From positions 97,428,861-97,492,860 of the forward strand of contig CM026426.1 of the NCBI GenBank assembly GCA_014871385.1: a DNA stretch of 64,000 nucleotides, written 5' to 3'. The stretch comes from Ceratodon purpureus (Eukaryota; Streptophyta; Bryopsida; Pseudoditrichales; Ditrichaceae). Position numbers and translations under genes: made by a program. Positions within the stretch are counted from its first letter, which is position 1. Each line of letters begins with the position of its first letter. Positions 306-42,842 of this stretch are shown here, piece by piece. The notes under the pieces are model-generated. The model saw nothing but the letters and a program-made list of their open reading frames with translations, did not search any database and was not told the DNA's origin.

Positions 306-924
306 TGTTAAAGGGATTTTCTGCCTTTATACTTAAGAGCAGTAATTTAGGAGCAGAACAGTAAACTGCTAGGAGCAGTAAAACAGTTAGTTACTGCGGT
401 TTTCTTAGTTACTGTGTTTTGGTTGAAGTTTTGACAATCGGATGAAAATTTGACTTGGATGAAAAACGGACAGATTGAGGGTGTCGGCTAGGGTTTGGGG
501 GGGGTACTGAGGAGTGAGGCCTTGGCGGCTCTCACTCTCTCTCTCTCTCTCCCCTTGCAGATTTGCAGCTATGGAGGTTAGGATGGTAGTTAGAATGGAG
601 GATTAGTGATTGAATGAGGAGTAGGACAGTTAGGAGAAGAACTGATTGTACTTGGAGGATAGTAATGATGAGAAAAGCACTCTTTTGAGCAGATTGAGTG
701 TGTACACATTGAATACTAGGGTCTGTAAGTAGATTTGCTTTGTGGGTTCTTGCATTGATGGAGCAGTAGAAAGGGGCAGGAGGATAAGAAATCTGGTGCA
801 GTAAAGGAGCAAAATAGTGGGAAGTAGAACTAGCTAGGTGGGTATAAGAATTTTGTGGGTTCCTCTTTATCTCTGGACAGTAAACTAGCTTTTTAAGGGT
901 GAAGCTAAATCACCCTTTAATACA
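306..924 (+). repeat. Candidate 3' LTR or LTR remnant (619 bp)
   Basis: It begins TGTTAAAGGG and ends CCCTTTAATACA. The ends are imperfect inverted repeats of the TG...CA type expected of an LTR. A polypurine tract and an ORF end lie immediately upstream. Inside is a CT microsatellite (about 533-552). The partner LTR is outside the window, so the boundaries and the target-site duplication cannot be checked. Confidence 0.5.
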
Positions 925-1392
925 AGACCCTTCCAAGCCATGCTTATTCCAGGGTTGGCAGAATTCCCCCGAGGACTTATTCGAGATCCGCAATATGTGG
1001 ACGTGCGGGGTCGAGTCCGGTCATTAAAATTCCTCGGTCTGGTCGAGGTCCTTCCTCGGGTCCACGTCTGGATAAATGCGTCGTCCGTCCGATGGAAACT
1101 AAAAGTAGCTATGTAAAATATCAAAAGGAGGGCCAAACCTCATCTGATTCATGTGATGTAATATTCTTTAAGAAAGTGCATGGTAATTAAGTAATAATTT
1201 GTGGAAACTGAATGGTGGACAAGATGTGCAACGACAATTACTCGGCGAGGTGTCACTCGGCCAAGTGTCACTTTTTTTTAACAATAATGGCAAATCAAAT
1301 CATGTATTACTCAGTCATAGTCAGACTCGATTAAAAACAAAAGCAGAGTATCACTGCGACTTCGTGACGGTCTAAATTAGAAAGGGCAAATT
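925..1392. other. Intergenic, no gene seen
   Basis: This lies between the candidate LTR and the 3' end of MULE copy A. A reverse-strand open frame at 885-1136 shows no family resemblance. A small repeat pairs TCGGCGAGGTGTCACT with TCGGCCAAGTGTCACT (about 1241-1271). I searched here for the terminal inverted repeat of the MULE and found none. Confidence 0.4.
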
Positions 1393-4300
1393 CTAGACTG
1401 TCTCGTAGGGCCCCGCCAAGGGGTGTGTCAAGATTCCACTCTCGAGGAGTAACTTCACTTCGTTGAAGCTAAAGGTCGATGCATGGATGAAAAGTTCGAC
1501 ATCCGGGTCACGCAGGCATACCTTTAAGAGGACGTAATACATATGTTTGCAATATGTAAATTGAACCCTCCCACGGAACTTCGTCATTGTTTTCTTGAAT
1601 GCTGGGCATGTGCAGCCGGGGAGGGAGCTGCTGGTGATCTGGTATTTCGTCACATTGGAAGGAGCCCCAGAGTCTAGCACGATGATGCAGCCGTGGCCGG
1701 GATGAGAAATCATGGTGATTGATCGCAGTCGTGCTCTGAGGGAGTCGGAGGAGGCCATGGACAGCCTCTGCTGCGGATTAGGTCGAGTCGCGGTCCGCTT
1801 GACAATCTTCCCGTCTCTCTTTCAGGGTACCGGTTAGCCTCTGCTGGCACCGGAACCGAGTCTAGGTTTTGCGGAGGGAGGTCGAAGGTGAAGAGCCTCC
1901 TAGGCAAGACTGGTTTCTTCTGTGGGAGCTGAAACCCTCCCTCCTCCAGGGCAAGAATCTTACATTCTTTCGGATTCGTCCCAAGTTTCACGGGCCATAC
2001 TGTTGGGATGGGTAAAAATCCTTCCTTTCTCGATAAATCGTACCAGTTCACCCATTTGCGCCTTGTCCCCTTCACGCACCTCTCAATGTCGTCGGGGCAG
2101 AAGAAGAAGTCCTCGGATATGTCGAGGTTCCTCCTTCTGCTGTGCCATACACGGCTGTAGGTCGGGGCAGGGGTGGGCTTAGCACCGCTGACAATCCTCT
2201 CTGTGCATTTCTTATTGGTGACGGCCCTCTGCGCCCAACAGCACTTTGCGGAAGTCTTTGGCAATCGAGTTATGTGCCACTGCTTCATGTTCACTTTGGT
2301 CTCCTCCACAGCCGAGACGTGACGCACGCCTTCTTCGCTGAAGGTTGAAGCGATGACGGAATCCATCTGTGGCGATGGATGATGAGCTGCTTCAACCTCG
2401 CAATCGCCTTCCTCAACGATGATCGGCATCGGAGCCACGCAAGCTCTGACAGGTCTGGTAGCGACTCGAGGATGCGAAAAGTTAACCTTATCTGGCCTAT
2501 GCGACTCTTCCTCCGCGCCAAGAGGCAAGTCGGGCTTGCGTTTCCGCGAACCAAACACCTCCTCCCCTGGCAAATGTGGGACGCACGTACAACACTCATC
2601 GGCGCCGGGCATGTCCAGCATGGGGTCCTCCAGAACCTTTGGTTCGCCCGTCTTTTTCGCCCTACGTTTTGCGGATCGTAGCCTCAGCTCCTTCTTGCTC
2701 GGGCCAGTACCCCCCATGTCGCCCTTTAGGTACTGGTAGTAATTCACAACCTGTAGAAAAGCACGGATAAAGTCGTCCATGGTGGCGACATACAGGTCGC
2801 TGCCATTATTGCCGGATGCTTGTAGCCACTTGTTGTGAACCGTCTCCGCGAGGTTGCAGGACGGCATCTCCGCGAGTTCCGCCTCCGAGAATTTCTGAGA
2901 TCCAACAATGGATGAACAATTAATGAATCACTAAGATGAATATGTACGGGGAAAGAGAAAACAAGAGTAGGTGGCGTGGTTACCTCGGTCATGAACCCAC
3001 CCCATTGGCGATAACGATAATGCCAGAATGAGAGCCATAAGTCAAGTTTCAATAAGGCAGATTCGGACACTGCCCCCGCAGATGCCCACCAAGCCCTTAT
3101 CCTGTGATAAAGAGCATCGGCCTCCGCCATTGATATTGCCATCATGTATTGCTGACACATCTTTTTGTGTTGATCCCACAACTCTTTGGCGACATATTTC
3201 TCAATATGAAGCACCATGGACTAGGTCCAATGAAATTGAGAAGTCCTCTCCCGGTCCTCCATTTGATCTTCCTTGTTGCCATTGCCGTATACTACCCGGA
3301 CCGCATTCCAATTAGCCTGGGCGCTGTCCGCCATGAAGCCCTTGAAGTTGGGCTTCTCCACGCCGTGTCTCTTCATGACTACATTTAGGTACTTCCAGAA
3401 CACCATCTGGGCTTCGGCGTTTTCAGATTGCATGTCGCAGCATGCGATCGTCATGACCCGGCAGTACGTGGAGTCATACACGTGGCATGCCATGGTTGTC
3501 CAATTTCGCACGCGCTTGACGTGGTCAAACATCATCCACGAAAGCTCCAGATCCCCCCATGGCTGCATTCTCTTCACAAGATCGACACCACTAGCGGGCC
3601 CCAGCTCCGACATTTTAACACGTAGACCTTGTCAGATTCTGACCCTTGGCCAGGGAACATGTTGTTCTGTACAAAATCCCATGTGCTGAGTCCCCACAGT
3701 TTTGTTATGCTGTCCATCACCCCATACCGTCTGTTGTACCTAAAAGTAACGACCTTGTTCCTAATGTTAGGCGACGCCATATCTTTGTACCTATCAAGCA
3801 GCGAGTAAAGCTCTTAAAGAGTGAGCATCTTAGATGGATCATCCTCCGATCTGTAATAAAAAACTACCAATCAGGTCCTTGCTGGCCTCTAGTACAACGG
3901 CGCTCTTCGTAGCCTTGGGTGTGTTCTCGGTCTAGTTTTCTATCAAACTACTTATCTCAACCTTAATGTCGCGGTAGTCTCCCACCTTGACAGGGTGGTC
4001 ATGGGATCCTACGTGGATGCACGCTCGTATCCTATTGCCCTTGCCCGAAACATAAAATATCCTTGCTCTACAAATGGCAACGCATACGGGAGGTTCCTTA
4101 CATACCTTGTAGACCAAAGTGGATTCTTTCGGAGCCTCCTCACCCACAACAAACGCCTGCAACGTGCATCCGTCAAATTCGGTCTCAGTCACGTCGTAGA
4201 TGCGATGATCGCGCTCAAGGTACCCGCAGTCCTTGTTCTCGCACCGCAAATGGCCCGCAGATGAAGACGACCAAAAAGATAGGTCCATATTGTTGGAGAT

Positions 4301-5144
4301 GTTGGTGGTGATCGTCTTTGTCTACACGTGCCCATCGTACCTCTTATCCATGCCCTGCATGGACTTGGCGGCTGATCGTGAGGCAGAGGATCCGACAAGT
4401 GGCAGTTCAAAGATGATGTCGCCGTTGAACTCGGCCGACAGATACTCCATTCTCTCATGTCTGATGGAATCGTAGTCTAACTTCTTCAAGAGATTCTTCT
4501 TACCCGGCCGCGAAGTAAGCTTCTTCAACAGCGATACAATACTGACAGACTTGTCCAAAGAAGGGGGCACTGAGATTCAAAGCGCGAGTGTCCACGGCCG
4601 CCTCGGGACAAACACGTCCTCTGGCGGGTATATATCCGGCTGACTTTTGAGTCCGCGGGCTCTTGTTATCGTCAGAGGAGAGATTGATAACCGGGGTATC
4701 TAAGCCCGGCTCAACTTTTACTTTGGCAAGGAGAGGCGTATCTGAGGCAGAGTCGGTCTTCAACTTCACGTCCACCGCTCCTAGTGTCTGGATGGTGCAA
4801 GTAGAAGACTATCTGAGGGTCAGGATCTCGGTAGACGCAGCCATTTGGGAATCCGTGAGACCGTAGACTCTATACCTACCAAGCATGAGCCTCCACATCT
4901 TACAATCCCTCTTGTCCACGAATGAGACCTCGCCTAGTGTATGTGTGATCTCTCCAGTGAGGTCATCACAAATCTCCTCCTCGACGCTAATGGTGTCCTC
5001 TTGATACAAGAACCTAAGACTAAGACGCTGACATGACACAAGAGCGTACCCATCATCATCTACCCTAAACGTAAGCAGAATTCCGACGTCATGTGCGTAA
5101 AGAAAAACGGAACCTAGGAACTGAGCCGGGACAGGTAGCGCCAT
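1393..5144 (-). pseudogene. MULE-type transposase with SWIM zinc finger, copy A (broken)
   Basis: Reading 5144 to 1393, the frames join into one long protein. An N-terminal region leads into a MULE-like catalytic core (FMADSAQANWNAV, about 3342-3300, then a SQFHW block near 3230). A helical block with FWHYRYRQWGGFMTE follows, then PSCNLAETVHNKW. The C-terminus carries a CxC...CxH SWIM finger (CTCP near 1612, CKHM near 1548). These are MudrA/MULE hallmarks; the core is divergent. One intron is clear at 2895-2983 (GT-AG, 89 bp); splicing it joins FMTE to KFSEAELAEM in frame. Damage includes in-frame TAG at 4809, 4322 and 3221 and frameshifts near 4565, 3840, 3605 and 1823. The last is a one-base deletion, shown by alignment to copy B. 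The gene is head-to-head with the ParB-methyltransferase gene. Confidence 0.75.
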
Positions 5145-5220
5145 GGCGTAGGGAGTTCAGAAAGAGCGACACAATTGACGAAGTGCAGAATTGAGAGGGT
5201 TGTCGCAGCATTTTCCACTG

Positions 5221-5230
5221 CATTTATACG
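5221..5230 (-). promoter_or_regulatory. TATA box of MULE copy A
   Basis: The minus strand reads CGTATAAATG about 80 bp upstream of the transposase ATG at 5144, a normal TATA-to-ATG distance with a short leader. Confidence 0.45.
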
Positions 5231-5388
5231 TTTGAATTTGCAAATCTGAACTTGTCATAACAGAGACGAATGTTGAGGAGAGGATGAATACCTCACGGAC
5301 TAAAAGGGAATGATGACTAGGTTTAGGGGACCCCTATGTTTACTTAAAAGGACGATCATGCAACAAATCACCAGCCACTAGAAGGCTC

Positions 5389-5400
5389 TATAATAAGGGC
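5389..5400 (+). promoter_or_regulatory. Possible TATA box between the divergent genes
   Basis: The plus strand reads CTATAATAAGGG. It lies about 70 bp before the first ATG of the small basic ORF at 5469. Confidence 0.3.
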
Positions 5401-5468
5401 CAGCCGTCTCTTGATTGCCACTGAATATAATTAGGGCTGGTACACCGTGCCAGAGTTAATTCCCTGAC

Positions 5469-5856
5469 ATGGGAAAAAGAAGAGGGATCTCAGCCGCCAA
5501 TTCTAGGAATTTTGAGTTAAGGAAATCTCTATATGGAAGGGCGCCAAAACAGTTAGAAGCGTCAAAAATAACAGTACTCATCCTGACGAGAGATATATTA
5601 AAGCAATGAGTGGCATTCTCCGAGATGTTTAGTGTGGTGAGAGAGCAGGATAGTGTCATAGATGCATGTCTATGATTCAACTGAAGTGGTCGCCACTCCT
5701 GTGAAAGAGAGAAAGAGAAAGAGGAAGGGGAGAGACAAGTTGTTTTCAAATTCGAAGCAGCTGACAGCTTCGAGGATGAGACAGGCTGAGGAACAGAGGC
5801 GACGTGTTGAGGGGTTTGGCGGGACCGTGAAGGCATTGAGTAAGGACTTCGCATAA
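5469..5856 (+). pseudogene. Small basic ORF between the MULE and ParB-methyltransferase genes (broken)
   Basis: An ATG at 5469 opens a frame starting MGKRRGISAANSRNF that ends at TGA near 5605. A second frame from 5662 to 5856 carries a strongly basic stretch (KERKRKRKGRDK) and a helical tail. The two pieces need a frameshift to join. Together they would make a nuclear, DNA-binding-like basic protein of about 125 residues. It could be a decayed third gene of the element or a lost 5' exon of the downstream gene. I do not recognise the family. Confidence 0.3.
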
Positions 5857-6033
5857 CTTCCCGTCATAGCAGTACCTTGAGTAGCAAAGGGGGGCGGGTT
5901 GTGTGAGACATCGCCATCGCAGTGTGTGACGCCCCTCCAACAATCAATTCCCCTCACCATACCTGAGTGCTTAGAGGTACGTGTATTAATTGTAGACATC
6001 ATTAGTTTGTGCGCCCTTGCTCTTGAGGCCAGG

Positions 6034-6040
6034 TATAAGA
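6034..6040 (+). promoter_or_regulatory. TATA box of ParB-methyltransferase copy A
   Basis: TATAAGA lies 190 bp upstream of the proposed ATG (6227), followed by a CT-rich leader. It faces away from the MULE promoter about 800 bp to the left. Confidence 0.45.
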
Positions 6041-6226
6041 AGGGGGAGAAGTTCCATGCTCAGTCTCTCTCTGCCCCCTCGTGGTGTTCTTAGCTCGCAG
6101 CCTTGCTGTGCCTGGCTTACACTGCGTTGCGGTTTTTGTGTGTGGGAGTGAGTGCAGTCAAGGTTCGGTTTAGGGCGTCGTTGTTAGGGTTTGTAGGATG
6201 CGGGTCGGTCTACATAGTTTGTCGCC

Positions 6227-9200
6227 ATGTTTAACCCTAAGTATGGAGGGAAGGTGTAGAAGGGTAGGTCGAAGAAGGGCCATGGGGAGGAGAGGTCGTC
6301 CGGGAATGAGAAGTCACTAGGATGTGAGAGGAAGGGTAGAAAGATGAGGGCTGGAGATGAGAGGTCATCAGAAAGTGAAAGGAAAAGTAAGAAGAGGCCA
6401 AGTAGGGAGGAGCGTCCCGAAAAGCACAAGAAGTCTAAGAAGGTTAGAATTGCGGAGTCCGCTGTCCAGCAAGAGCAGGTAAGATAGTACTCCCTGAAGT
6501 AAGGGCGGGAAAAGTAATTAGGGCATCGTCAAAGCGTCCAGTTTCTAAGTATGTATCTAAGGTTTTAGAAAGGGTTCGACTCAGCTGACTAGTTAAGTCG
6601 CGATACATTGTTGTAGGAAGACGGAGTGGAGGAGGCACAGGAGACGGCTGTGGAGGAGATGCAGGAGGCGGCTGTAGAAGAGACGCAGGTCGTGGCTGTT
6701 GGGCAGAGGCAAGGAGGGGAGAGGCAGGACGAGAGCATGGACCTGCAAGCGACGGAGCAGTTCGAACGGGAGGAAGTGGCAGGCGTTGTCAACAAGTAGA
6801 CGGCCATGGCCGAGGGCGCGAACGTAGGTGCGGCGCTTACCTTGGAGAGTACACCTTCACCGAAGAGGGCGGAGAAAGCCGAGGTGGAGGTGGAAGAGAA
6901 AGATCCCTTGGTGGATGAAGAGGAGGAAGAGGAGGACGATGCAGACACGCCGTCGGCTAAGCTCACATGGCCGCGGGTTAAGAAGGGGGAGGAACCGCCG
7001 GACAACCCTCTAGGAAGGGACGAGGGTGTGACACCAACAGAGATAGAGGCTTGAATGATCAAGGAGTTCGAGAATGACACCTTCGTTGCAATCAACCAGA
7101 GTCGGAAACTGCCAATAGAGAAGTTCTCGAGGTTGAGGATTCCTTAATGCCGGATGGTTAGTATGCCTGAAGTCAAGCCAGTGTTGGAGTTTGAGGTCCT
7201 ACGGTTGCAAAGCGAGTTCCGGTCCGGGTACAGAGTAGGGTCAGCAATGTTCTATGTGGCTCTGACCGATTCGAAAGGGAGGGAGAAGCTCGTTACGGAT
7301 GAAATCAGAGAGAAATGGAGTTCTGCATGGGATCAGTTGGATAATGAATTCGAGTTAGAATTGAATTTTGACCCCGATTTGAAGCCACTTCGCGGAAAGA
7401 TGTATTTCATTTACGATGGCAATCACCGCTACACGGCCTAGAAGCGCTACATCGATGAAGCTAAGATGGGCAATATGGACTGGCATCGCCTTCACGGTAT
7501 GCCAGATTGCTTGGTCCTTGAGATCCATAAGAATCTATATCCAAGTATTCTCAGGGCCATGCATTCAGTTAACAAGTAAGTACCATTCCCAGACTAGAGC
7601 TTAAAGTTTTTACTCAATGCTAAGTCATGGATTTCATTAGTTGTAGTTTGTGATATCTAATATCATACGTCGTGACAGGTCAAATGAGCAGGCGCATGTC
7701 AAGACAAATGTCTTGCACGAGATCGAGATGGTGCACTAGTATGGGCAGCTACCCATAAAATATTTTGAGAATATCCTCAGCAAGGAAGAGTACCTAAGGG
7801 AGAAGAACAAGTCGACCAATACTTGGTATGCATTGTCTTCGGAGACAATGGTCAACCACCTCTTCTCGGTAAATCCTATAAACTTTTTCACTCCTATCTG
7901 ATTTATAAAGTATGTCGAAATAATTGAATAAACTAAATTTTGGGGTTGAATGTGGCAGGAAGAAATAACAGGTGCAGGCGAGGAAGCATTCAATCACTAT
8001 AAGCAAACGACGCCGCTGAATAAGCAAACAGGGGAGCGTTTACGTGAGGTTATTTTCAATCACATTCAGAAGAAAAAAGAAGCCCTTAACAAGCTTTTCA
8101 CCAAGCTCCAATCCGTTGCGAATCCTAAGAACGAGAAGGATTTTATCGCAGAGTTTTGAAGTTTCTGGACATTCTTTACTTAGATTCATGCAAGTAATTT
8201 TGTTCTTCCTTATTGAGGCCCGGTTGATGCCCTTATATCTACTACCCCGACCGCGCCCTTAGGTTTAGGTTTAGTGCCGAGGTCGGGGAACGCGCCCCAA
8301 GGGGCCCTAACCGGCCCCTTTTGGGCCGAGAGGGGCCTATAAAGGTCCTTTAGGGCCAGTTCCTAGACCGCGCCCTTGAGGCTCGCAGGGGTCTCTCGGT
8401 GCCGAGAAGCCCCTCCCGGCCTCAAGGGCGCGGTCGGGTTTTCGGCCCCAAGGGGCCTTAACCGGCCCCTCTTGGGCTGAGAGGGGCCCGTAAAGGCCCC
8501 TTCGGACCGGAAACCCGACCGCGCCCTTGAGGCCGAGAGGGGCTTCTCGGCACTGAGAGATCCCTTTGAGCCTCAGAGGCGCGGTCGGGGAACCGGCCCA
8601 AAGGGGCCTTTACGGGCCCTTTGGCCTCCATCCTCGACCGCGCCTCTGAGGTTCGGAAGGGGCTCTCGGTGCCGAGAGCCCCTTTCGGGCTTCAGAGGCG
8701 CAGTCGGGTTTGTAGCCATTTAGTCATTTTTGGGGGTAATCTTGCTACCTGATTGTTGCTTGATGAGTTAGAACTTTAGGTAGGATGTGTTTAAACTTCG
8801 GATGATGACCAGTAGAACGTTACTGTCCAAAATATTTTGATTCTTTAAGTGAGCTGCAAAGAAAGGTGGCTTGTCATGTTTGGCATTGATAAGCCATTTG
8901 AATTTGCAGATTTAATTTAACCTGGAAGGATCGAGTGTTTTGGTCATTGACATTATTTAATGCCTCTAGAATGTGGTGTAGCTGCAACGGTGGAATGGCC
9001 TGATGAGCGTTTGTTATGGCATGACTTTGATTCTTACATTGTTTGGGTTTACGTCCTTTCAGATTCGGAACCATTACAACAATTGCCCTAATCAGAAGTG
9101 GGACATGGGGCTAGACAAACTGCAGCTTATTGCGACCACTAACGTGAAGGGGATGTATAAAGTGCGTTGGCTGAAGATGTGGAATGGCTCTGATATAACA

Positions 9201-11529
9201 AGGGCTGCAAACAGTTTTCCGAGGTCTTCGTGCAGTGAGTCTCAACTTCATGCTTGGCTGCACAAAGCATGCTTCTATGCGCTGCTGGAGGACAAGATCA
9301 CGGAGAAGATTGAGCCCATCCTCCTTGAAGATCCGGTTCCAAACTGGACTTATTAAGTGAAGTCCTAGCAAGTGTACCTGAACTACTGGAAGAAGAAGGT
9401 TTGGCAAAAGGCTTTTCCAGCTGTCTTTGGTGGGAAACATGCATTTCAGTGGAATGACACATGGGACCAGGTGCCTAAGGGCCATCTCATCGTCAGCCGG
9501 TTTATCTATCGGTGAGTATCAAAACCTTGGTCGGCTTTTGTTTAGTTTGGCCTTTGCGCAGTTAAGTAATGTGACCCAAGTCCTTGTGTTTTGTAGATAC
9601 TACAAGAGGGAGTTGATGCCAAAGGCGGCGATCACGGAGGAACCAGATTGGATGGATACCTCGACTGAGCCTGGCCATGACTCGTTCATCTTCACGGAGT
9701 ACCAGAAGATCACATTTCCGTCGGCGCATCTGAAGGAATGCGGGTGGTACATCGAGTGTGCAAAGACTTTCTGCCCCGCCGAGGAGGAAGATCTGAAGAG
9801 ACGACTAGGTGTTGTTAACGCCACTTCGGAGGAAGTACCTGACGTCGAAGAGGCTGCACCTGACGACCCAAAAGTTGGTCAGAGGAGAAAGAAATCGCAC
9901 GCTCAGCTAGGAAGACGCGTAGCGCAGAGGACCGCTGCATCACAAGACGGTGGTACAAGTTTAGTTGCAGGGTCACCGGGTGATAAACAAAGAGGACAAC
10001 GGTCCTTTAAATCTCCCAAGTCCAAACGTACACTGGATGGACCTTCGCCATCAGGGAACTCCTCTGGGACAGATTTTACTCTGTCTCAGCCTGAGTTTTG
10101 ACTGGTTGACGAACCGAAGGAGCTAAAGTACGATACTTTCGATTTGATCATGAATGGTATGATCAATAAATTGAACTTCGATGCGGTGTACAAGTTCGCA
10201 AGCGAGTGCAATTATGATAGAACCTGCCGGGTTTGTGGGAGGAATCAGATGAAGGACGGAATGGTGGACCTTGTAGTTGCCCAGGTTCCGGACAACTCCC
10301 GGGTACCAGGCATATCAAGAACGGCCTCGGATGTCCCTAAGTGGAATGTCCTTCACAAGGACTGGTTCAAGAACACGTTCGTGTTTGCCCATAATTTCTT
10401 GCACGATGATGGCGCCCTTGTCTTTGTTTACACTGACGATAACTCCACAAGGAAGACTATCAGGTCCTTCTGCCCAAGCCTCGGGTTCAAGATGTTTAAG
10501 GAGTGGACCGGCTTCAACATACTGCCGCTTCGGGTTCCATCTAGGAATTGAGACCACTAACCTTTTTAGGGTGGGTCTTTATGTCAGATGCACTCCGGAT
10601 CCCAGGCCAGCATCTCTCTCCGCCGGCACTCGGAACTCTGCCTTCACTCAGGAGCCAACCCACAGTGGAGATATTGACATTGTGAAGGGAAACGTCCTTA
10701 TGAACTCGGCTAACGCCAAGACTGTGAAGATGAACGGCGATCGGCCTTGGCGTGGTCCTAAGGAACTTGATGAGTATTTCTGGGGCTGCATCGTCTTGTC
10801 TTGCACATCCCCTGGAGGCATTGTCGTTGACCTCACTGCGGGAACAGGTACGGCCTTATAATCTTATGATACTGACTTTCCCGTACTTCCTGATTGTAGT
10901 TCGCCTTAACACTAACTCCCTTCTTTGTCGACTTTTGTAGGCGACTCCATACAAATCTGTCGCAATCGTGGCCGTCACATTGTCGCTATTGAGGAGGACG
11001 AGGACAAATTCAAGGAACTTCTTGCTCCGATGAGATCTGACTTGGTTCCCCGTGCACCTGCTGGGGGCCATCACAGTGACCAAGAAGACGAAGACGACTA
11101 CGACGACGACAATGACGAGGTTCCTCCCATCCTGCTTGGAGAAGAAGATCTTGCTTACCATCCTCCGGAAATCCAACCGAAGAGCAGGCAGTGAGTGTAG
11201 TCGTCAGGTCTTGTATTAGACAGAAATTTTAAACATTTTGTGATTCTAACAGTCAGGCTTAGAATCGCCTTTTCTCAGATACTGCCTTTGTATGCAGAGT
11301 GGCCCGAGTTCCCTTGTCGCCGGCAGCTACGTTCATCCGCATGCCTGTTTACGCTGAGCAGGCAGCAAGACACCAGGCTGCATTACCTTCCCCAAAGAAA
11401 CGGAAGACAAAGCGAAGATATATTGACCAGGCAGTTAAGGAGTACCTACATTTGGAGGCTGCTGTTGATAATACATTGGATGTAGGTGATGAAGACTCAG
11501 AGTATTATGATACATACCGTCAATATTAA
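6227..11529 (+). pseudogene. ParB-like / beta-class DNA methyltransferase-like fusion, copy A (broken)
   Basis: Eight exons with matching phases can be traced: 6227-6478, 6617-7575, 7679-7868, 7959-8153, 9063-9511, 9597-10847, 10941-11190 and 11298-11529 (about 1,258 codons). The N-terminus is charged. A ParB/sulfiredoxin-like block follows with GKMYFIYDGNHR (about residue 350). A helical middle leads to a methyltransferase-like domain. That domain has a degenerate motif IV (DLVVAQVPDN, about residue 905), a GALVFVY strand, and then the AdoMet motif I DLTAGTG and GRHIVAIE (about 1095-1115). The IV-before-I order is typical of beta-class N4/N6 amino-methyltransferases. The last exon has a nuclear signal (PKKRKTKRR). 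In-frame stops lie at 6257, 6797, 7052, 7145, 7439, 7737, 9354, 9366 and 10099. A frameshift lies near 10545, and the exon 4 donor is lost (TTTTGA in place of GT). Not functional as it stands. Confidence 0.65.
8215..8715. repeat. GC-rich palindrome array inside a ParB-methyltransferase intron
   Basis: This lies in the fourth intron of copy A (8154-9062). The motif GACCGCGCCC recurs at about 8248, 8366, 8517 and 8636, alternating about 118 and 151 bp apart. It is paired with its complement GGGCGCGGTC. Between them are palindromes around CTCTCGGTGCCGAGAG and CGGCCCC...GGGGCC. The block is far more GC-rich than its surroundings and could fold into large cruciforms. The same CTCTCGG core appears at 13.9-14.27 kb. 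Confidence 0.8.
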
Positions 11530-11658
11530 GACGAAACTATTTTATTGACCCCAATATTTCCTTAATTTAAAATTGTGGTATTGTTGTAATTATCGATCTT
11601 GCTGTCGTACCCCATCAAGCAAGCCCAATATTGCTCATTAAAAATTCGTTCTTCATAA

Positions 11659-12310
11659 GGGAGATGGACAGGGAGAGGGAGAGTGACGAGTACAGATTGC
11701 GACGAAGAGGGACAGGTACACGGAGAGGATGTGACCACGCATGAGAGGGAGAGGGAGTGGTCCCGAGAGAGAGGGAGTGGTCCCGAGAGAGAGGGAGAGG
11801 GAGAGGGAGAGGGACAGGGAGTGACCGCGAGGGAGATGGAGAGGGAGAGACCGCGAGGGAGAGGGAGAGGGATAGGGACAGGGAGTGACCGCGCGGGAGA
11901 AGGAGAGGGAGAGGGACAAGGAGTGACCGCGCGGGAGAGGGAGTGACTGCGAGGGAGAGGGAGAGGGAGAGGGAGAGGGACAGGGAGTGACCGCGAGGGA
12001 GAGGGAGAGACCGCGAGGCAGAGGGAGAGGGACAGGGATAGGGAGTGACCGCGAGGGAGAGGGAGAGGGAGAGGGACAGGGAGTGACCGCGAGGGAGAGG
12101 GAGAGGGAGAGGGACAGGTAGTGACCGCGCGGGAGAGGGAGTGACCACGAGGGAGAGGGAGTGACCGCGAGGGAGAGGGAGAGGGACAAGCAGAGGGACA
12201 GGGAGTGACCGCGAGGGAGAGGGAGAGGGAGTGGCTGCGAGGGAGAGGGACAGGGGTAGGGAGTCGCGTCGGGACAGGCGAGGGGGGGGGGTAGGGAGGG
12301 AGGGTGGGTG
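11659..12310. repeat. GA-rich satellite (GAGGGA-type)
   Basis: About 650 bp of imperfect GAGGGA and GGGACAGGGAGTGACCGC units. Long open frames on both strands here, including a Ser/Leu/Pro-rich frame of 375 codons on the minus strand, are by-products of the repeat. Confidence 0.9.
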
Positions 12311-12540
12311 GTCTTCCAAAAAAAAAGTGTATCTCGGAACTCTTTTAGACCCAGGAAGGGGGGGCCTGCCGAATCCTACAGAGAGTACTATGTGGCGGAA
12401 GGGTTCCTTGGGAGCCCGCCCGCTCGGAAGCTTGTGAATTCCAAGGGGACTCCTTGTCCCCCGTCGCGGCGGAACTCCCTGTCCCTGCTCGCGGCGGGGC
12501 TCTTTGTCTCGCGTCGCGGCGAGAGTCCGGGCTCGCGGTT

Positions 12541-12692
12541 GGGAAGTCGGGAATCTGGAGTCGGGAGATAGGAGTCGGGAGTCGGGTCTTGGGTCTTCGG
12601 TCTCGAGACTTGGGACTCGGGACTCAGGACTTGGGACTTGGGACTCAGGTCTCGGGACTCGGGTCTCGGGACTCGGGACTCGAGACTCGTTT
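12541..12692. repeat. Degenerate GGGACTC/GGGTCTC heptamer repeat
   Basis: About 20 loosely repeated heptamers of the form GGGACTC, GGGTCTC or GGAGTCG follow the GA-rich satellite. They end abruptly at A-rich DNA. Confidence 0.8.
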
Positions 12693-13016
12693 AAATTACA
12701 GAACCAAAGCAAAAATAAAAATAAAAAATAAAATAAAAACATTAATCAAATATCGTAATAAAGGGAAAGAAAAGGAAATCAAAATCAATAAATTAAAGAT
12801 GAAAATGATCAATAAATTAAAGATTAAAAACATAACAACTTTAAGGTTGTCATTATAACTCGCGTTTATAGTACTTACAAAATGGTACACGGTTTACAAA
12901 AACCTCTACACAAGGGCGTTGAACCTGCCAAAGAGGCGCCACTCCACTGAGCAACACGGTACCCCAATAATTTGCACACATTCTTAGCCAATTTCTAGGC
13001 TACCATCTACAAATGT
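12693..13016. other. AT-rich spacer, no gene seen
   Basis: A/T-rich stretch with runs of AAAATAAAA between the heptamer repeat and the 3' end of the small minus-strand gene. No motif is recognised. Confidence 0.4.
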
Positions 13017-13370
13017 CTAGGCTACACCATCCTCAACTACATCCGCTTTGTTTTCCGGGGCAATGATCTCCTCTACACCCGTTGCATCTTCCTCCAACTT
13101 CCGTCGATAAGCCTGTGCCGCCTCCTGATCTTCGAAGTCCAACCAATGGAGATGAAAATTGGAATCATACTCTTCAGCATCATCCATCTGCATGTGAACA
13201 GTCTCTCCTTCATATTCAAAAATGGTGAGAATGAGGGTATCTCCCCTACGTCCATAAGGCATCCATTGACCTCCAAAGAAATTTCCCTCCTCCCGCGGCA
13301 CCTCCCCCTTTGGCACCTCCACCTTGGGCATCTCCACCTTTCGAACCTCCACCTTCGACACCTCCACCAT
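13017..13370 (-). CDS. Small hypothetical protein, 117 aa
   Basis: I chose the ATG at 13370 because it is the first ATG downstream of the minus-strand TATA box at 13642-13650; the frame stays open further upstream without an ATG. The protein begins with a short Val/Glu/Lys repeat (VEVSKVEVRKVEMPKVEVPK). It continues into a compact, acidic, folded-looking region (GRRGDTLILTIFEYEGETV; HLHWLDFEDQEAAQAYRRKL). No known family is recognised. The leader is a long polypyrimidine stretch, as in plant 5' UTRs. The gene is divergent from the small gene at 14505, with the palindrome array between them. Intact, but short enough that chance cannot be excluded. Confidence 0.45.
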   Translation of the reverse strand: MVEVSKVEVRKVEMPKVEVPKGEVPREEGNFFGGQWMPYGRRGDTLILTIFEYEGETVHMQMDDAEEYDSNFHLHWLDFEDQEAAQAYRRKLEEDATGVEEIIAPENKADVVEDGVA

Positions 13371-13641
13371 GGATCCTCCAGAACTGGATTCTCCCTTTCC
13401 CCTCTTCTTGCCAATTGCCTTCGAGCACTGCCCCTTGGAAGCCAACTTCGCCACCTTGCGAACAATCTTTCCAAAGAGAAAAAAGGAGGGAGAGGAGAGG
13501 AGAGAGGAAGAGAAGATAGAAGGAGAAGAGAGGAGAAGACAACAAGAGGAGAGAGGAGTCCGATTGGAGAGGAGAGAGTGAGAGAGAGAGTGAGAGAGAG
13601 AAGTGAGGAGAGAAGTGTGAGTGGTGAGGGCGAGAGGGACC

Positions 13642-13650
13642 CCTTATATG
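13642..13650 (-). promoter_or_regulatory. TATA box for the minus-strand small gene
   Basis: The minus strand reads CATATAAGG. A pyrimidine-rich leader without ATG runs from here to the ATG at 13370. Confidence 0.45.
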
Positions 13651-13899
13651 GGCCCCACCGAGCCCTCACGGCCGCCTCCTCTTTCTAGGGCAGGGAGGCG
13701 GCTCCCTCCCAACCCTGGGAGAAGCCCTCCCTCCTTAGGGTTGGGAAGGTCGCTCCTTCCCAATCACGAGGAAGGGAGCCTCTTCCCAGGGTTGGAAGGG
13801 CGCCACCCTTCCAACCCTCAAGGGAGGAGAAGATGCCGTCGCCTTCCTTAGGCGGCGGCCACCAATTGGGGGCGGTGGCCACCCAAAGGCGGCGGCCTC

Positions 13900-14275
13900 G
13901 CCCTAAGGGCTCTCGCTACCGAGAGCCCCCATGGTGATGGGGCTCTCGGTATCGAGGGTCTCTAGTAGGGACTCTCGGTACCGAGAGCCCTATCACCATG
14001 GGGGCTCTTGGTACCGAGGGGCCCCTTTGATCATAGGGCTCTCAGTGCCGAGAGCCCTATGGCCGGGAGGGTTACCCGATACCGAGAGCCCCTTCATAGG
14101 GGCTCTCAGTACCGAGGGTCCCTCCCGGCAATAGGGCTCTCGGTGCCGAGAGCCCTATGGCCGCAAGGGGCCCTTAGTACCGAGAGCCCCTATGAAGGGC
14201 TCTCGGTCACAGGTGCCCCTAGCCGCCATAGGGCTCTCGGCACCGAGAGCCCTCTTCAATGGGGTTCATGGGCAT
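13900..14275. repeat. Array of GGGCTCTCGGTACCGAGAGCCC-type palindromes
   Basis: About eleven perfect or near-perfect copies of a palindrome built on CTCTCGGTACCGAGAG are spaced about 30-35 bp apart. Arms are intact in some copies (about 13971, 14040, 14135, 14233) and half-decayed in others. The array sits between two divergent TATA boxes and shares its core with the intronic array at 8.2-8.7 kb. A looser inverted-repeat region of CCCTCC/GGGAGG words lies just to its left (13685-13870). Confidence 0.85.
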
Positions 14276-14368
14276 AGCCCTTGATGAAGGGGGCCACCGG
14301 GCCCTTTCTAAGTAGGGCGCCCTTGCGGCGCCCCCTTTCTGACCTAACCCAGGTTGAGAAGGGCACCC

Positions 14369-14376
14369 TTTATAAG
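14369..14376 (+). promoter_or_regulatory. TATA box for the plus-strand small gene
   Basis: TTTATAAG about 130 bp before the ATG at 14505, with a C/T-rich leader in between. Confidence 0.45.
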
Positions 14377-14504
14377 TGCGCCCCTCCTCCCCGTCTTCTT
14401 ACAATCTTTCCTTCCTACCTTCACATACTCTCTCCTTTCTATGCTCTCCCCTCCTCTCATTCCTCTCCCTCTTTGCTTCTCTTTCAGTTTTTTCGAACTT
14501 CAGG

Positions 14505-14774
14505 ATGGCGCGGCCGCAGTCGGAGGTGGAGATGAAGAGCTTCTTTGGGGACGTGCGTTTTATCGGAGTCATTCTAGAGATTGAGGCTGAGGTGGAGGAG
14601 TACTCTCGGATTCTGAGGGAGAACATCGTGTACTTCAAGGACCTCACTGCAATTTGGAACTATGAGGCAGGCGTTGCGTTTTCTCAACTTGTCGACATCT
14701 GGAAGTACACCTGGGAGCCGCCATTCGCAGAGCTAACCCGTATACGGGGTTCTTCTAGAATTAGCTTGGCCTAG
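14505..14774 (+). CDS. Small hypothetical protein, 89 aa
   Basis: The frame runs from ATG 14505 to TAG 14774. The protein is helical and mixed-charge (EIEAEVEEYSRILRENIVYF; SQLVDIWKYTWEPPFAELTR), without a recognised domain. An earlier ATG at about 14440 opens a different, overlapping frame. The start is therefore uncertain unless the leader is spliced; a CTTTCAG lies at 14481-14487. TATA box and leader resemble those of the divergent partner at 13370, and both flank the palindrome array, which suggests a shared bidirectional control region. Confidence 0.4.
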   Translation: MARPQSEVEMKSFFGDVRFIGVILEIEAEVEEYSRILRENIVYFKDLTAIWNYEAGVAFSQLVDIWKYTWEPPFAELTRIRGSSRISLA

Positions 14775-15661
14775 CTTTGGTGTAGCTAGTAATTGAAGAG
14801 CAAATTTTTCCTAATTGTGCTAGCGCCGGTCGGCCAATATTATGTACAATTTTTATCATCGATTAATGGAGAAGCACAATTGAACAAGATGAAACGCATG
14901 CGGCTTCATTGTTCTGGATCCGCAAGTTTCTTAGCTAATGTTGGAGTATGTGGTGTGTCCATTGCATTTTGTTTTCAGGTTTCAAGCATAATTGGAAGTT
15001 ACTTTTCGTGTTGATTTTGGTGGATGAAAGATGTGCAAGCTGGATCAAAGATATGGAAGGATACTGGAGTATTGATTGCCCCAAAATGAACGGATTGCAC
15101 TGTAGAGACCTACGATAAATGTCCATCTTCTACCTCAACAGCGAAATTATCACAGCAATGAATCTGAAGCGGACGATGACGAAGGATATGAAGGAGATGT
15201 CCAAACTTCCGTTCTTGTGTTGACTGCCAATTTTTATATCGGCTGAGTTGAAGGTGTTCCTCGTTCAAGTAAAGAGCTTCCTCTAGATTCTACATGCTTC
15301 CCAATTCCATGATTGAAGGTCAAGACACCATGCAAGGTATTTTGCTCCTATTTCAAATCAGATGTCCATACAATCCCTAAACCATGATGTCATGATGACG
15401 TCAGCCCTAATTTTGTACCAGAAAGAGAGGATATCTGCACATGAGACATCTTTTTTTATACGGATATGTTCACAACACCCCAAACCTAGGGTGACATCTC
15501 TTGAAAAATGTTTCAAAATATGAGCTTAAAATGCGCAGTCTAAGGCGACACTAAACCCTAAACTGGTCCTAAAATTTCCAATTTATCGCTAACCGGTTTC
15601 TACTCTCCGCTCTCCGCTCTCCACTCACATACGACTTTTCCCCGATACTGGAGCACTTTAC
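14775..15661. other. No gene seen
   Basis: Mixed-composition DNA with only short open frames and no recognised motif. Confidence 0.4.
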
Positions 15662-15913
15662 ATGTACAAAAATACCACCGATTCAGTGGTATTCCTTAAG
15701 TTTAGAGTTCCAGATCACGATGAGGATGACTTCGAATTGCAAGGATGTGTCCGACCGGGTGTTGGATTAATCGTTATACAAGTACTCTGTGATGATCAGC
15801 TCTACAGTGAGTTCTTACTCGACAGTTTCACATTCAGAATCGTGTTCGAGATAAAAAGGAAGGAACCATACAGATGGAGGTTGCATGCAAGAGTCTTTCA
15901 CGCATTGCCCTGA
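15662..15913 (+). CDS. Hypothetical ORF, 83 aa
   Basis: ATG 15662 to TGA 15913. The sequence looks like part of a beta-rich domain (DSVVFLKFRVPDHDEDDFEL; TFRIVFEIKRKEPYRWRL). It is acidic at the start and basic at the end. No family is recognised, and there is no clear promoter within 150 bp apart from a repeated CTCTCCGCTCT. It may be a fragment of a larger transposon gene. Confidence 0.25.
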   Translation: MYKNTTDSVVFLKFRVPDHDEDDFELQGCVRPGVGLIVIQVLCDDQLYSEFLLDSFTFRIVFEIKRKEPYRWRLHARVFHALP

Positions 15914-16878
15914 TTAGAACACCAGTATCGTACATGGAGAGGATACACAACATATGCAAAAATTAATAAGGGGTAACGCTAGCACATGACAGCCGTCAGA
16001 GCGAGAATTCCATAACGCAACGCGGACTCCATATCATGACAATGAATGATCCAGGATTTAATGCACGCCGCCAACTCCATTCAACGAGAATCTGACAAAA
16101 TTGGAACTTTATTGGACGTTGCCAGAGCATTGTTCTATACATAGTAAAAAGGGACATAAACCGATTGTAACAACATGTCTAGCAAAGGTTCGTGCAGGAT
16201 TAGAAAAGCCAAGTAATCCAACCTAGGATCATTTTTCGTAAATCGAAAAGAGGAATTGCAAAAAAGGGAACTGTAAGACATAAGTTACGGGGAAGAAAAG
16301 TTCTCAGAATCAAGCTTAAAAACTGCAAAGCTCATTATGCACCGTAGCTCCAGCGGACCCTCAGAAGAGGCGGATTCAAAGCAAGTTGCATTGCATCGCT
16401 GGCGGATTCATACTTCAACAAAATTGTTCGTTCGAATGGAGGTCCACCCCTTCCATTGCGCGGACACCCGCTCCATTCTAATAAGCCCATAACTTGTTCC
16501 TCTTCTGCGGCTCCGTAGTGTCCACTTCCAAATGGATTAATAGGTACACGTACAATCCGGCTCCAACACAAGATCCACGAAATCGGTATGGGTTCTCTGG
16601 TCGCGAGTGACGCGCCGGGGCATCGTGGAAACGCGAAAAGCAGGAAATGGAAGAGGGAAACCTTTGTAATCGCGACTAAGCCGCCGTTCCCGACTTCTGC
16701 GATGCCGTGCGACTCGGCCACCTTTGGAGAGGGTCCGTGTAGATATGCCCGGTCGGATTGGAGCGGGGATGTCCGTGTCGCGATGCGCGCTTGTGGGTGA
16801 TCCGGTCTGCGAGTTCGTGGGAGTTCGGCTCTGCGCGTGAGCCGAGACGTATGCAGTTTGATCTCCGGAGTTCGCAGC
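15914..16878. other. No clear gene; low-confidence open frames only
   Basis: Two overlapping minus-strand frames (16335-16721 and 16676-16966) are open but show no domain or family resemblance. GC content rises toward the right, where transposon-like DNA begins. Confidence 0.3.
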
Positions 16879-17151
16879 TCAGGCTGCGAGTAAACTCCGT
16901 CGCACCCACGTGTAGTTCAACACATTGTTGACGTTGGTGAACTGCTCCTGCATAATGGGCGTCCACTGAAAATCACGAGAAGTATTCAACAAAGACCTCA
17001 CAATATCCTGGTGATCTAGTAAATACCGGAAATCTCGAATCTCGTGCATCACGCGGGTTACAAGCAGCCACTGCAAAACATCCGTGGCGGACTCAGGGTG
17101 CGAGGAGGACTGTGTCGGACTAGGCATTCTAAACGAGGAGCTCCCGGCCAT
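16879..17151 (-). CDS. Hypothetical ORF, 90 aa, probable transposon fragment
   Basis: ATG 17151 is the first on this strand. The protein starts Ser/Pro-rich (MAGSSSFRMPSPTQ) and continues helical (VMHEIRDFRYLLDHQDIVRS; QEQFTNVNNVLNYTW). It could be the first exon of a DNA-transposon gene, because a GTCCG-rich cluster like those around the hAT element lies just upstream (17480-17660). The family is not identified. Confidence 0.3.
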   Translation of the reverse strand: MAGSSSFRMPSPTQSSSHPESATDVLQWLLVTRVMHEIRDFRYLLDHQDIVRSLLNTSRDFQWTPIMQEQFTNVNNVLNYTWVRRSLLAA

Positions 17152-17479
17152 GCTACGAGACGATGCGGAAATCAGGTGAGTCAAGTCGGAGTCTCAAATG
17201 ACAGTCTCAAAAATACGCACCCTGTTCATTCGAAAACGAGAGTCTCAAGAATAACCAAAAATACTATACGCATATCGTGGAAGAGCCTAGGTAATCTACC
17301 GTGTAGACAGTAGAGTGCCGTTGTAGAAGAATGAGTGAATAATGACTGAACAATGCATTTGACATGATATCCGAGAGCAGGGAAAGAGTGACAATGATTG
17401 AGATTAACCATGTTAATCATAAGTACTGATGTTTTGTTGGGAGTGGACACATATTAGTGCATGGCTTAAAGAAGAACGT

Positions 17480-37271: not shown

Positions 37272-37609
37272 TGTTACGACCACCACAGGTTGCAACAGTT
37301 GGAAATCTGAACAGAAGACGGTTATCAAGGAAGCACCGGTTGTGACGGTTAGGAACGGTTAGGAATGATCTCTCAGGTTGCCTATGAATACCATTGCGAG
37401 GGAGTATTGTTTACGCAACCTCTTGTAATTTACATGAAACACGAAGGTCCTGATTTTTGTCTATTTGTGTGTTGTGCATATAATATTATTGTGTAAGAGT
37501 GTGTCTGTATCTGATCATAACATATCAGTTCACCGAGAAAGAGAGGAAGGATCAGGGAGTGTCGACAAGTCTATGGCTCGGTAACAGCTTCGTGAGCCAT
37601 TCCGCAACA
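37272..37609 (+). repeat. 5' LTR of the chromovirus
   Basis: Starts TGTTACGACC and ends CCGCAACA. The 3' copy ends CCGTAACA, giving a TGTTAC/GTAACA terminal inverted repeat. Differences from the 3' LTR lie near 37407, 37558, 37585 and 37605; three of the four are transitions. Confidence 0.95.
37383..37421 (+). promoter_or_regulatory. LTR promoter and predicted transcript start
   Basis: TATGAATA at 37383-37390 lies 25 bp upstream of TGTTTACGCAACCT (37408-37421). The latter is the stretch complementary to the primer-binding site, as expected if it is the 5' end of the RNA. Confidence 0.55.
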
Positions 37610-37611
37610 TT

Positions 37612-37625
37612 AGGTTGCATAAACA
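37612..37625 (+). other. Primer-binding site, self-priming type
   Basis: AGGTTGCATAAACA begins 2 bp after the LTR. Its reverse complement matches LTR positions 37408-37421 at 13 of 14 bases. The usual initiator-Met tRNA site (TGGTATCAGAGC type) is absent here. This layout is that of Tf1/sushi elements, whose RNA primes its own reverse transcription. Confidence 0.65.
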
Positions 37626-37713
37626 CAATTTTGTCCACACTCGGGAAAGAGGATCAGTGAGCATCGATTTTAAGAAAGTTTTGTAGTGCGTCTGTAATCT
37701 CCACTTCTGTGTG

Positions 37714-38799
37714 ATGGACCGTGAGGAGTCAGAAATGGAAAGGGGTCCACAAGTGCCTGAGACCATCGGGGCAGAATGGGCAGAGTTTATTCAGCGACAG
37801 ATTGAGACAGTATTTCAGTCTGCGATTCCACATATGGTGCATCAGATTTCGGAGCGGGCTATGGTAACGCCGTCACAAACATCGCCTGCCAGGACAATTC
37901 GAAATAGTGAACGTGATCAGCAAAGGTCGGGATGTAATGAAATGGAGCAAGAGTCGAAGGTTGCTCCACCTGAAAAATTCCTCGGGAAGAGAGGAGGGGA
38001 GGTTTATCGATGGTTTGCTCAAATTCGATTTGTCCTGAGGGGTAAACCTCATACGTACAAGCGTGATGAAGACAAAGTTGCATATGTTTTTTCATATATG
38101 GGTGGAGCTGCTCAAAGTTGGGCGATGCCACTCTTGCAGGCTCTCGACGAAGGACGACAGCATGCATTGTTGACAGATTATTCTGCTTTTCAAAAGGTTG
38201 TGATTGCAGTTTATGGTGACTTGGATAGAAAAGGGAACGCGGAAGATCGCCTAGGTAAAATCAAACAAACAAGTTCAGTGGCTGCTTATGTTTCCAGTTT
38301 CAATGAGCACGTTGCTCAGGTAGATTGGAATGAGTCGAGTCTGGTAGCACGATTCCGCAGTGGGCTCAAGGATGAAATTCTGAACTCTATTGCAGAAACT
38401 CAACCACGAGGTTTACAAGAATGGATTGCAATGGCTTCACGAATTGATGAAAGGCTGTGGGCACGACGACAGACTCGACGGCCGTCAGTTTCGTTTTCCA
38501 GTCCAACCCAGGTTCATTTTTGAACCCAAAAAACTCAATTTTTTGTACCAAGAGACAATGCTGGTAGGTTCCAGGCTCCAACAAAAGAGTGGGGGCCAGT
38601 TCCAATGGATTTGGATACAATAGCTCTTGCCAAAACTACGACTGAACGACTAGATTACCAACGGCAAGGGCGGTGTTGGGGATGTGGCTTGGTTGGTCAC
38701 ATACGATCGAAATGTCCAACGAATCCATCTAAACCTCTATCTATAGCAACATCTGAAGTGGTTGATGTGGGATCGGGAAAAGGCTCATCCCGGGACTGA
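37714..38799 (+). pseudogene. Chromovirus Gag, interrupted
   Basis: ATG 37714. Capsid-like region about residues 85-250 (EKFLGKRGGEVYRWFAQIRF; SYMGGAAQSWAMPLL), then a CCHC zinc knuckle (CWGCGLVGHIRSKC, about 38675-38716). One in-frame TGA at 38521-38523 interrupts an otherwise continuous frame of 361 codons. Gag forms the particle and packages the RNA. The next frame change leads into protease. Confidence 0.85.
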
Positions 38800-41700: not shown

Positions 41701-42451
41701 TCACCCTCAATCAGATGGGCAAATGGAACGCGTTAACCAAGTTCTGGAGCAATATTTATGTATGTTTACTACATGCCAGCAGGACGATTGGACTGACCTC
41801 TTGCCTATAGCAGGATTTGCTTATAACAATGCTGTTCATTCAGCTACTGGAATGTCACAATTTTATGCAACATATGCCTATCATCCTTCCATATCGTTCA
41901 CAACTCCATCAAATTCTACAGTCTCAGCAGCTGAAGACCGCATCCGGTATTTGAAACAGATTCACCATGAAATAAAGGATATGCTGAAAATTGCTGGAGA
42001 TCAGGCAAAGCAACGATACAACAGTATCACTCATCAACACCAGCTCTTTAAAGTAGGAGACAAGGTTCTTCTTCCTCACGACAACATTTCGACATCAATA
42101 CCATCGAAAAAACTGGCCTCCAAATATCTGGATCCTTATACAATTATAAGTAAGCTTTCCGACGTGGTATACAGGTTGAAATTACCTCCGACACTGAAAA
42201 TCCATGACGTATATCATGTCTTATTATTAGAAAAATACTGTTCAGACACGATTCCAGGTCGTATACAACATCCACCACCACCCATTGTGACTCCGGATGG
42301 TGAAACGGAGTGGGAAGTATACAAAATCCTTGATTCTAAATTGGTTGGACGTTGGAAGAAGCTTCATTACCTCGTCGCATGGACAGGCTATGGGCTAGAG
42401 CAGAACTCCTGGGAGCCTGCGTCACATCTGAAAACGCACCACTTAAAGTAA
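38800..42451 (+). pseudogene. Chromovirus Pol: protease, RT, RNase H, integrase, chromodomain (broken)
   Basis: Protease has the active-site DSGATG (about 39010). Reverse transcriptase blocks include [24 protein letters not shown] (about 39930-40065) and a YLDD box in a shifted frame (about 40130). RNase H has DASD and YDKELLSIVHAF (about 40570-40720). Integrase has a complete HHCC finger (about 41225-41360) and the D, D(SDRG) and E residues of the catalytic triad (about 41425-41740). The C-terminus is a chromodomain (LHYLVAWTGYGLEQNSWEP, about 42362-42420) that in this group targets integration to marked chromatin. Frame changes occur near 39640, 40070, 40560 and 40920, with stops near 39070, 39842, 40198 and 41411. 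The integrase-chromodomain part (41489-42451) remains a 320-codon open frame. Confidence 0.9.
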
Positions 42452-42486
42452 AGGAGTCCATCGACGTTAACCCAATGCTCCGAACT

Positions 42487-42496
42487 AGAAATGGGG
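42487..42496 (+). promoter_or_regulatory. Polypurine tract of the chromovirus
   Basis: AGAAATGGGG ends 3 bp before the 3' LTR. Confidence 0.7.
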
Positions 42497-42499
42497 TAA

Positions 42500-42837
42500 T
42501 GTTACGACCACCACAGGTTGCAACAGTTGGAAATCTGAACAGAAGACGGTTATCAAGGAAGCACCGGTTGTGACGGTTAGGAACGGTTAGGAATGATCTC
42601 TCAGGTTGCCTATGAATACCATTGCGAGGGAGTAATGTTTACGCAACCTCTTGTAATTTACATGAAACACGAAGGTCCTGATTTTTGTCTATTTGTGTGT
42701 TGTGCATATAATATTATTGTGTAAGAGTGTGTCTGTATCTGATCATAACATATCAGTTCACCGAGAAAGAGAGGAAGGATCAGGGAATGTCGACAAGTCT
42801 ATGGCTCGGTAATAGCTTCGTGAGCCATTCCGTAACA
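42500..42837 (+). repeat. 3' LTR of the chromovirus
   Basis: 338 bp, 4 differences from the 5' LTR, with the perfect terminal inverted repeat TGTTAC...GTAACA. Confidence 0.95.
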
Positions 42838-42842
42838 ATTGG
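42838..42842 (+). repeat. Target-site duplication, right
   Basis: ATTGG, identical to 37267-37271. Confidence 0.95.

Follow-up and report, generated by a model that had tools for sequence, protein, structure and literature searches.

Two divergent genes in the window

The window analysed here is a 64,000-nucleotide stretch of Ceratodon purpureus DNA (contig CM026426.1, positions 97,428,861 to 97,492,860 of the forward strand; C6 below), taken from an assembly of 362 Mb and 151 contigs. Near the left end of the window, a preliminary description made from the letters alone had recognized a Mutator-like element (MULE) transposase gene head to head with an accessory gene whose product resembled ParB and DNA methyltransferases. 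Both divergent genes are present there, and the separate TATA boxes reported about 800 bp apart correspond to TATA-like words, TATAAA at 5223-5228 on the minus strand and TATAAG at 6034-6039 on the plus strand. The genes belong to a decayed element copy, copy 1, delimited by homology to an end-to-end copy (copy A) elsewhere on C6:

923-15643: element copy 1 (subfamily A), decayed, left end truncated
~5156 down to 1393, minus strand: MULE-like transposase pseudogene
5157-6226: region between the two divergent genes, shared by them, with a TATA-like word for each
6227-11529, plus strand: accessory gene pseudogene, intron-containing
6227-6478, 6617-7575, 7679-7868, 7959-8153, 9063-9511, 9597-10847, 10941-11190 and 11298-11529, plus strand: exons of the accessory gene model
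7055-7575, plus strand: ParB-like region, by motif only (GKM[FY]..[DE]GNHR..AW), from a five-sequence alignment
8278-8711: palindromic repeats of ~151 bp within the large intron
10102-11060, plus strand: beta-class amino-methyltransferase-like domain, with motif I retained across an intron and a degenerate motif IV
11658-12282: tandem array of GAGAGG type, following the accessory gene
13017-13643, minus strand: small open reading frame (ORF) common to copy A, possible third gene
14376-14771, plus strand: small ORF common to copy A, possible fourth gene
15600-15643, plus strand: right terminal inverted repeat (TIR) of copy 1

Both genes of copy 1 are broken. Stops and frameshifts disrupt the transposase, and the accessory gene model, with exon limits read from GT-AG signals and frames, contains nine in-frame stops, a frameshift near 10,540 and a non-GT donor following the exon end at 8153. 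Copy 1 is 84-92% identical to copy A, in pieces, over A 1940-17389, and ~586 bp of the left end of copy A have no counterpart in it. As a side observation, the commonest differences between window positions 923-11589 and copy A are G>A and C>T (280 of 788, with polarity assumed); C>T occurs at 43 of 602 CG sites versus 81 of 2028 other C, a ~1.8-fold excess that may hint, modestly, at former methylation of cytosines in copy 1.

The domain layout of the transposase was taken from a structure model of a relative, P0003, and putatively comprises an N-terminal domain, a GCM/WRKY-like zinc domain, an RNase H-like domain and a C-terminal SWIM-like CxC..CxH motif. By this modelled fold the transposase looks MULE-like. 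The Pfam MULE model PF10551 found no match in the window pieces, nor in 26 of the 49 homologues scanned, and none of the 93 listed places where it matches the genome lies inside the window; such a miss does not disqualify a transposase as a MULE.

A 16-kb MULE-like element encloses both genes

A TIR search confined to the window copy failed because the left end of that copy is gone. In copy A, both genes lie between TIRs (left GAGGGTAGCTTGTATGTGAGCGG versus reverse complement of right GGGGAAAGGTCGTATGTGAGCGG, matching at 18 of 23 bp), and a perfect 10-bp target site duplication (TSD), GGTAAATCTA, stands on both flanks; this word occurs nowhere else in the 18 kb that include the copy. With its ends thus located, the element occupies C6:108740871-108756906, within the stretch read (C6:108739518-108757517), is 16,036 bp long and encloses both genes. 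Two copies were read at both ends. The second, C9, has TIRs matching at 19 of 23 bp and no target duplication, which leaves copy A as the one source for the TSD. The left terminus falls at the identical base, with differing flanks, in eight of the ten copies whose predicted left end was fetched, and is missing in C2 and C12. The right terminus could be located in four copies (A, C9, C2 and that of the window), and is absent from the fetched stretches of seven others (C12, C8, C11, C1, C3, C5 and C10). An ungapped scan for TSDs and TIRs (15 of 24 terminal bases, 9-bp word) missed A and gave nothing convincing in subfamily B or in copy C; the outer ends of subfamily B were not found.

Together these results show a MULE-like DNA transposon of ~16 kb, with two core genes diverging from a shared region and both inside the ends; the genome holds dozens of copies. 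The preliminary description had proposed just such an enclosing element and expected long TIRs with target duplications around 1.2-11.7 kb. Inverted ends and a TSD do exist, in copy A; the homology in the window extends over 923-15643, and the TIRs of copy A are short. The TSD length falls in the MULE range of 8-11 bp, and MULEs with TIRs of 14-40 bp, or with none, are on record (PMC6446971).

Linkage was counted among the matches listed. The methyltransferase part, used as query against the genome, has 203 matches, some of them listed, and the sample consisted of the first 69 accessory-gene rows (73-99% identity, window copy included) and 65 transposase rows (89-98% identity); later accessory rows, left out, were mostly second halves of the same copies, one 74-77% copy and rows at 32-50%. 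Of the 69 accessory matches, 52 have a transposase upstream of them on the other strand within 30 kb, versus 0.19 expected by chance, and 40 of these 52 pairs are spaced 6.1-8.0 kb apart. Three neighbors lie in another arrangement. No listed partner was found for 17 of the 69 accessory matches, some of them partial and three with a candidate 31-54 kb off, or for 14 of the 65 transposases. When 2-kb stretches were taken at a fixed distance, where the transposase was predicted, 14 of 20 held it in the expected orientation (7/12 in subfamily A, 7/8 in B). The preliminary description had named, as findings that would speak against it, copies with the two genes unlinked and terminal repeats around only one of them: most listed matches are linked, a minority lack a listed partner, and the ends of copy A surround both genes.

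The head-to-head layout is common to four subfamilies, A, B, L067 and L068, of which the last three are represented by one partly read copy each. In B, the methyltransferase exon is 28% identical to that of A, and the exons of both the transposase and the accessory gene form open frames. L067, of the 75% transposase class, has a ParB-like exon 73% identical to that of a second window copy (copy 2); for L068, of the 78% class, only the ParB-like and middle parts of the accessory gene were found in the stretch. Copy C keeps the accessory gene, and its match to B starts only at position 3193, inside the transposase.

Some further observations concern these copies. Contig C6 is 110.5 Mb long, and the other large contigs seen (C1-C5, C7-C13) measure 16-29 Mb. 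All 11 listed accessory rows with internal stops (of 69) lie on C6, which may for that reason be a poorly recombining chromosome; stop-free rows lie on C1-C12. Open frames of 3666-3871 amino acids surround three accessory matches (C5:3957259, C1:28197240 and C7:17436946). In subfamily B, a 362-amino-acid ORF downstream of the accessory gene (L044:3102-4187, plus strand) bears a weak likeness to plant self-incompatibility S1 (E 0.003, below cut-off).

A methyltransferase-like domain with a degenerate motif IV

By the gene model the accessory protein has ~1250 amino acids. Its spliced methyltransferase part matches PF01555 with E values of 1e-5 (B), 3e-5 (A) and 8e-5 (copy 2), at scores of 23.1-26.1 bits, below the curated cut-off of 26.7, over profile positions 163-219 of 221; window copy 1 gives E 2e-4, again below cut-off. 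With a profile built from four sequences, the matches are CcrM (E 1.1e-4, positions 12-211) and DpnA (9e-4); those to MboIIA (0.03) and RsrI (0.05) are weak. These matches identify a beta-class amino-methyltransferase-like domain with motif IV ahead of motif I, in agreement with the block seen earlier. The S-adenosylmethionine (SAM)-binding motif I is C-terminal, as in the beta class and in CcrM and M.RsrI, and its D...AGTG or AATG is kept in most sequences, with a few A copies deviating.

Motif IV, the catalytic motif of beta-class amino-methyltransferases, has the form (D/N/S)PP(Y/F/W), and is DPPY in CcrM and M.RsrI. In all 37 sequences compared (30 subfamily A loci, the window copy, B, copy 2, L067 and the sequences P0050-P0052), this position instead holds [DQR][VI]P[ED], with no aromatic residue. 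The A loci read AQVPDN in 29 cases and ARVPDN in one, and the window copy AQVPDN; B has DVPEK, copy 2 and L067 have DIPEN, and P0050-P0052 have DVPEG, DVPEG and DIPEG. In A, B and P0050-P0052, the rest of the exon contains no [DNS]PP[YFW].

The exon itself is mostly open; openness across many copies was examined for this exon. Among the 51 best matches of the 203 (88-92% identity, near full length), 46 are stop-free, and the five with stops are all on C6. The 30 A loci yield 27 usable methyltransferase frames, 21 of them distinct and open, and the median ratio of nonsynonymous to synonymous divergence (dN/dS) is 0.378 over 83 pairs with dS > 0.03. Selection combined with loss of the catalytic motif suggests that the accessory protein is a pseudoenzyme.

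A protein search with the 1260-amino-acid read-through of copy 1 (region 240-1150) gave 6708 candidates and none at E <= 0.001, and an exon-sized alignment used as query found three relatives. The methyltransferase piece had no match in a phage search, and scans of viral contigs with the methyltransferase and ParB alignments found no relatives.

The ParB label is motif-based only: GKM..[DE]GNHR..AW is common to five aligned sequences, with one exception at K, and the block is 35-41% identical across subfamilies. Some copies also carry an ORF of YxPTSPV heptads like those of the RNA polymerase II C-terminal domain (CTD), namely window 61290-61690, L044:6272-6775 and L067:3626-4075 (minus strand); the L044 ORF matches PF05001 at 22.1 bits, above the cut-off of 20.3. 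The L067 ORF directly precedes the ParB-like exon and shares its strand, and so probably encodes the N-terminus of the accessory protein in that subfamily.

The element also contains noncoding tandem arrays, whose units differ between subfamilies as judged by length and type. Subfamily A has the GAGAGG-type and 151-bp palindromic arrays; B has a 150-bp array between accessory exons and a 99-bp array on its right side; L067 has units of 209-242 bp between the two genes.

Possible roles of the accessory protein and neighboring elements

Our preferred reading, held tentatively, is that the accessory protein may be a non-methylating, sequence-specific self-recognition factor acting on the element's own arrays, in anti-silencing or in a transposition complex. 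Such a protein would no longer methylate DNA and would be a putative sequence-specific DNA binder, possibly SAM-sensing, with the noncoding tandem arrays as its putative binding sites. Binding might shield the arrays from silencing by the host, which is what VANC proteins achieve in VANDAL MULEs, or might help to assemble the transposition complex. VANC itself is not known to be related to the protein described here. We prefer this mechanism mainly because of the likeness of the arrays to VANC targets, a likeness rather than a test: in VANDAL elements, those targets are rapidly diverging tandem repeats (PMC10398659). VANDAL MULEs with VANC likewise combine a non-transposase gene with noncoding tandem repeats that differ between elements (PMC10398659, PMC5735166), although anti-silencing has been tested there, whereas here we infer it.

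Several points weigh against this reading. Degeneration of motif IV falls short of strict proof that catalysis is lost; a single young family supplied 31 of the 37 motif IV sequences, as close copies, so that independent lineages are few; and the dN/dS value blends selection before insertion with drift after it. No ParB profile matches the ParB-like block in Pfam, NCBIfam, PDB sequences or phages, where a search with the block returned just two matches at E 6. A fold search with its poor AlphaFold2 (AF2) model gave no meaningful match, as expected from a model confidence (pLDDT) of 47. Copy A is itself damaged, with a frameshift in its ParB-like exon and Gln in place of the SWIM-like His. Moreover, tandem arrays can arise without function, and neither L068 nor the decayed copy 2 has long arrays of note.

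Somewhat less probable than the self-recognition factor is that the accessory protein is a co-factor without any part in silencing, a structural partner of the transposase in end pairing, target choice or integration, much as has been proposed for maize MURB. Its pairing with one transposase lineage across deep divergence, inside the same ends, fits this; the retained SAM motif and the differing arrays would then go unexplained, and the interaction with the transposase is putative.

Active self-methylation, in which a working N6-adenine or N4-cytosine enzyme with an atypical motif IV would mark the DNA of the element for protection or silencing control, is in our view unlikely. In its favor, the protein has the domain order and the SAM motif of the beta class, the exon is mostly open, and the authors of a study of Ectocarpus suggest this activity for related proteins (PMC12477816). 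Yet in all 37 sequences Val or Ile replaces the first Pro and Glu or Asp the aromatic residue, and in subfamily A the Asp of motif IV has also given way to Gln or Arg. As DPPY appears in none of them, the self-marking by methylation that the preliminary description raised is doubtful.

An elaboration of the self-recognition factor is less probable again: an acquired methyltransferase would have become a non-catalytic, SAM-binding array reader that beats host silencing, and one subfamily would have added CTD-like heptads that recruit the transcription machinery. We give very little weight to gene capture, in which the accessory gene is a host or bacterial passenger useless to the element. MULEs can carry captured genes (Pack-MULEs; PMC12477816), and the copy A accessory gene is frameshifted, but the stop-free exons and the dN/dS value argue otherwise, as does retention of the partner in four subfamilies at identities down to 28% (methyltransferase exon) and 35-41% (ParB-like block). 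Chance adjacency of two unrelated repeats, for which only the matches without a listed partner speak, is refuted by the linkage count, and the genes share common ends.

Maize MuDR also carries a transposase gene (mudrA) and an accessory gene (mudrB) in one MULE. Its mudrB is convergent and is not known to contain a methyltransferase domain, and its TIRs are long, in contrast to the divergent genes and short TIRs here. A closer parallel is Sola1-1_Ec32 of Ectocarpus, a large DNA transposon (21.5 kb) in which a ParB-like plus N4-methylcytosine/N6-methyladenine methyltransferase protein is encoded opposite a Sola1 transposase (PMC12477816). The accessory proteins (1104 amino acids there, ~1250 here) share an amino-methyltransferase-type domain, compared by description, and a ParB-like part, identified here by motif; here the transposase is MULE-like and DPPY is absent. 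The same source cites green and red algal cases, as well as Iyer et al. 2011 and Petroll et al. 2025. This kind of accessory gene was therefore already known from algal transposons, and the earlier statement that no plant element with the pairing had been described holds at most for plants. DNA methyltransferase genes also occur in retrotransposons of dinoflagellates and charophytes, as C5-cytosine enzymes with activity shown, unlike the domain here (PMC5890265). Word searches of open-access literature yielded no report of such an accessory gene in MULEs, nor of catalytic motif loss; we rate the MULE-like host, the lost catalytic motif and the differing tandem arrays as new.

If the reading as a non-methylating self-recognition factor is right, the ParB-like plus amino-methyltransferase-like kit is present in a further transposon superfamily, with its methyltransferase part under selection despite the lost catalytic motif. 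The published suggestion of self-modification then becomes a testable question, enzyme or pseudoenzyme, and dozens of closely related copies in one genome are favorable for deciding it.

Elsewhere in the window lie remnants of the same family:

50936-51682, minus strand: third transposase C-terminal fragment
59,987-60,780, minus strand: transposase C-terminal fragment of copy 2
61290-61690, plus strand: decayed ORF with Pol II CTD-like heptads
61897-64000, plus strand: accessory gene of copy 2, continuing beyond the window end to ~65,755

The recurrence of the pairing noted earlier at 60-64 kb thus stands for the accessory gene, and the transposase is reduced to a C-terminal fragment. Copy 2 has a right-TIR-like end near 67.2 kb, and we infer that the heptad ORF is probably the N-terminal part of its accessory gene. 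Compared with 9063-9511 of copy 1, the stretch 63109-63660 of copy 2 also seems to contain an intron without counterpart in copy 1, which would be an intron gain or loss inside the family. No accessory gene was seen beside the third transposase fragment. More ORFs on the minus strand at 56148-59400 adjoin the truncated transposase of copy 2 and possibly represent another mobile element. Finally, direct repeats at 37272-37615 and 42500-42843, 98% identical and ~5.2 kb apart, flank ORFs that are reverse transcriptase- and integrase-like by eye; 37272-42843 is probably a young Gypsy-like long terminal repeat retrotransposon.

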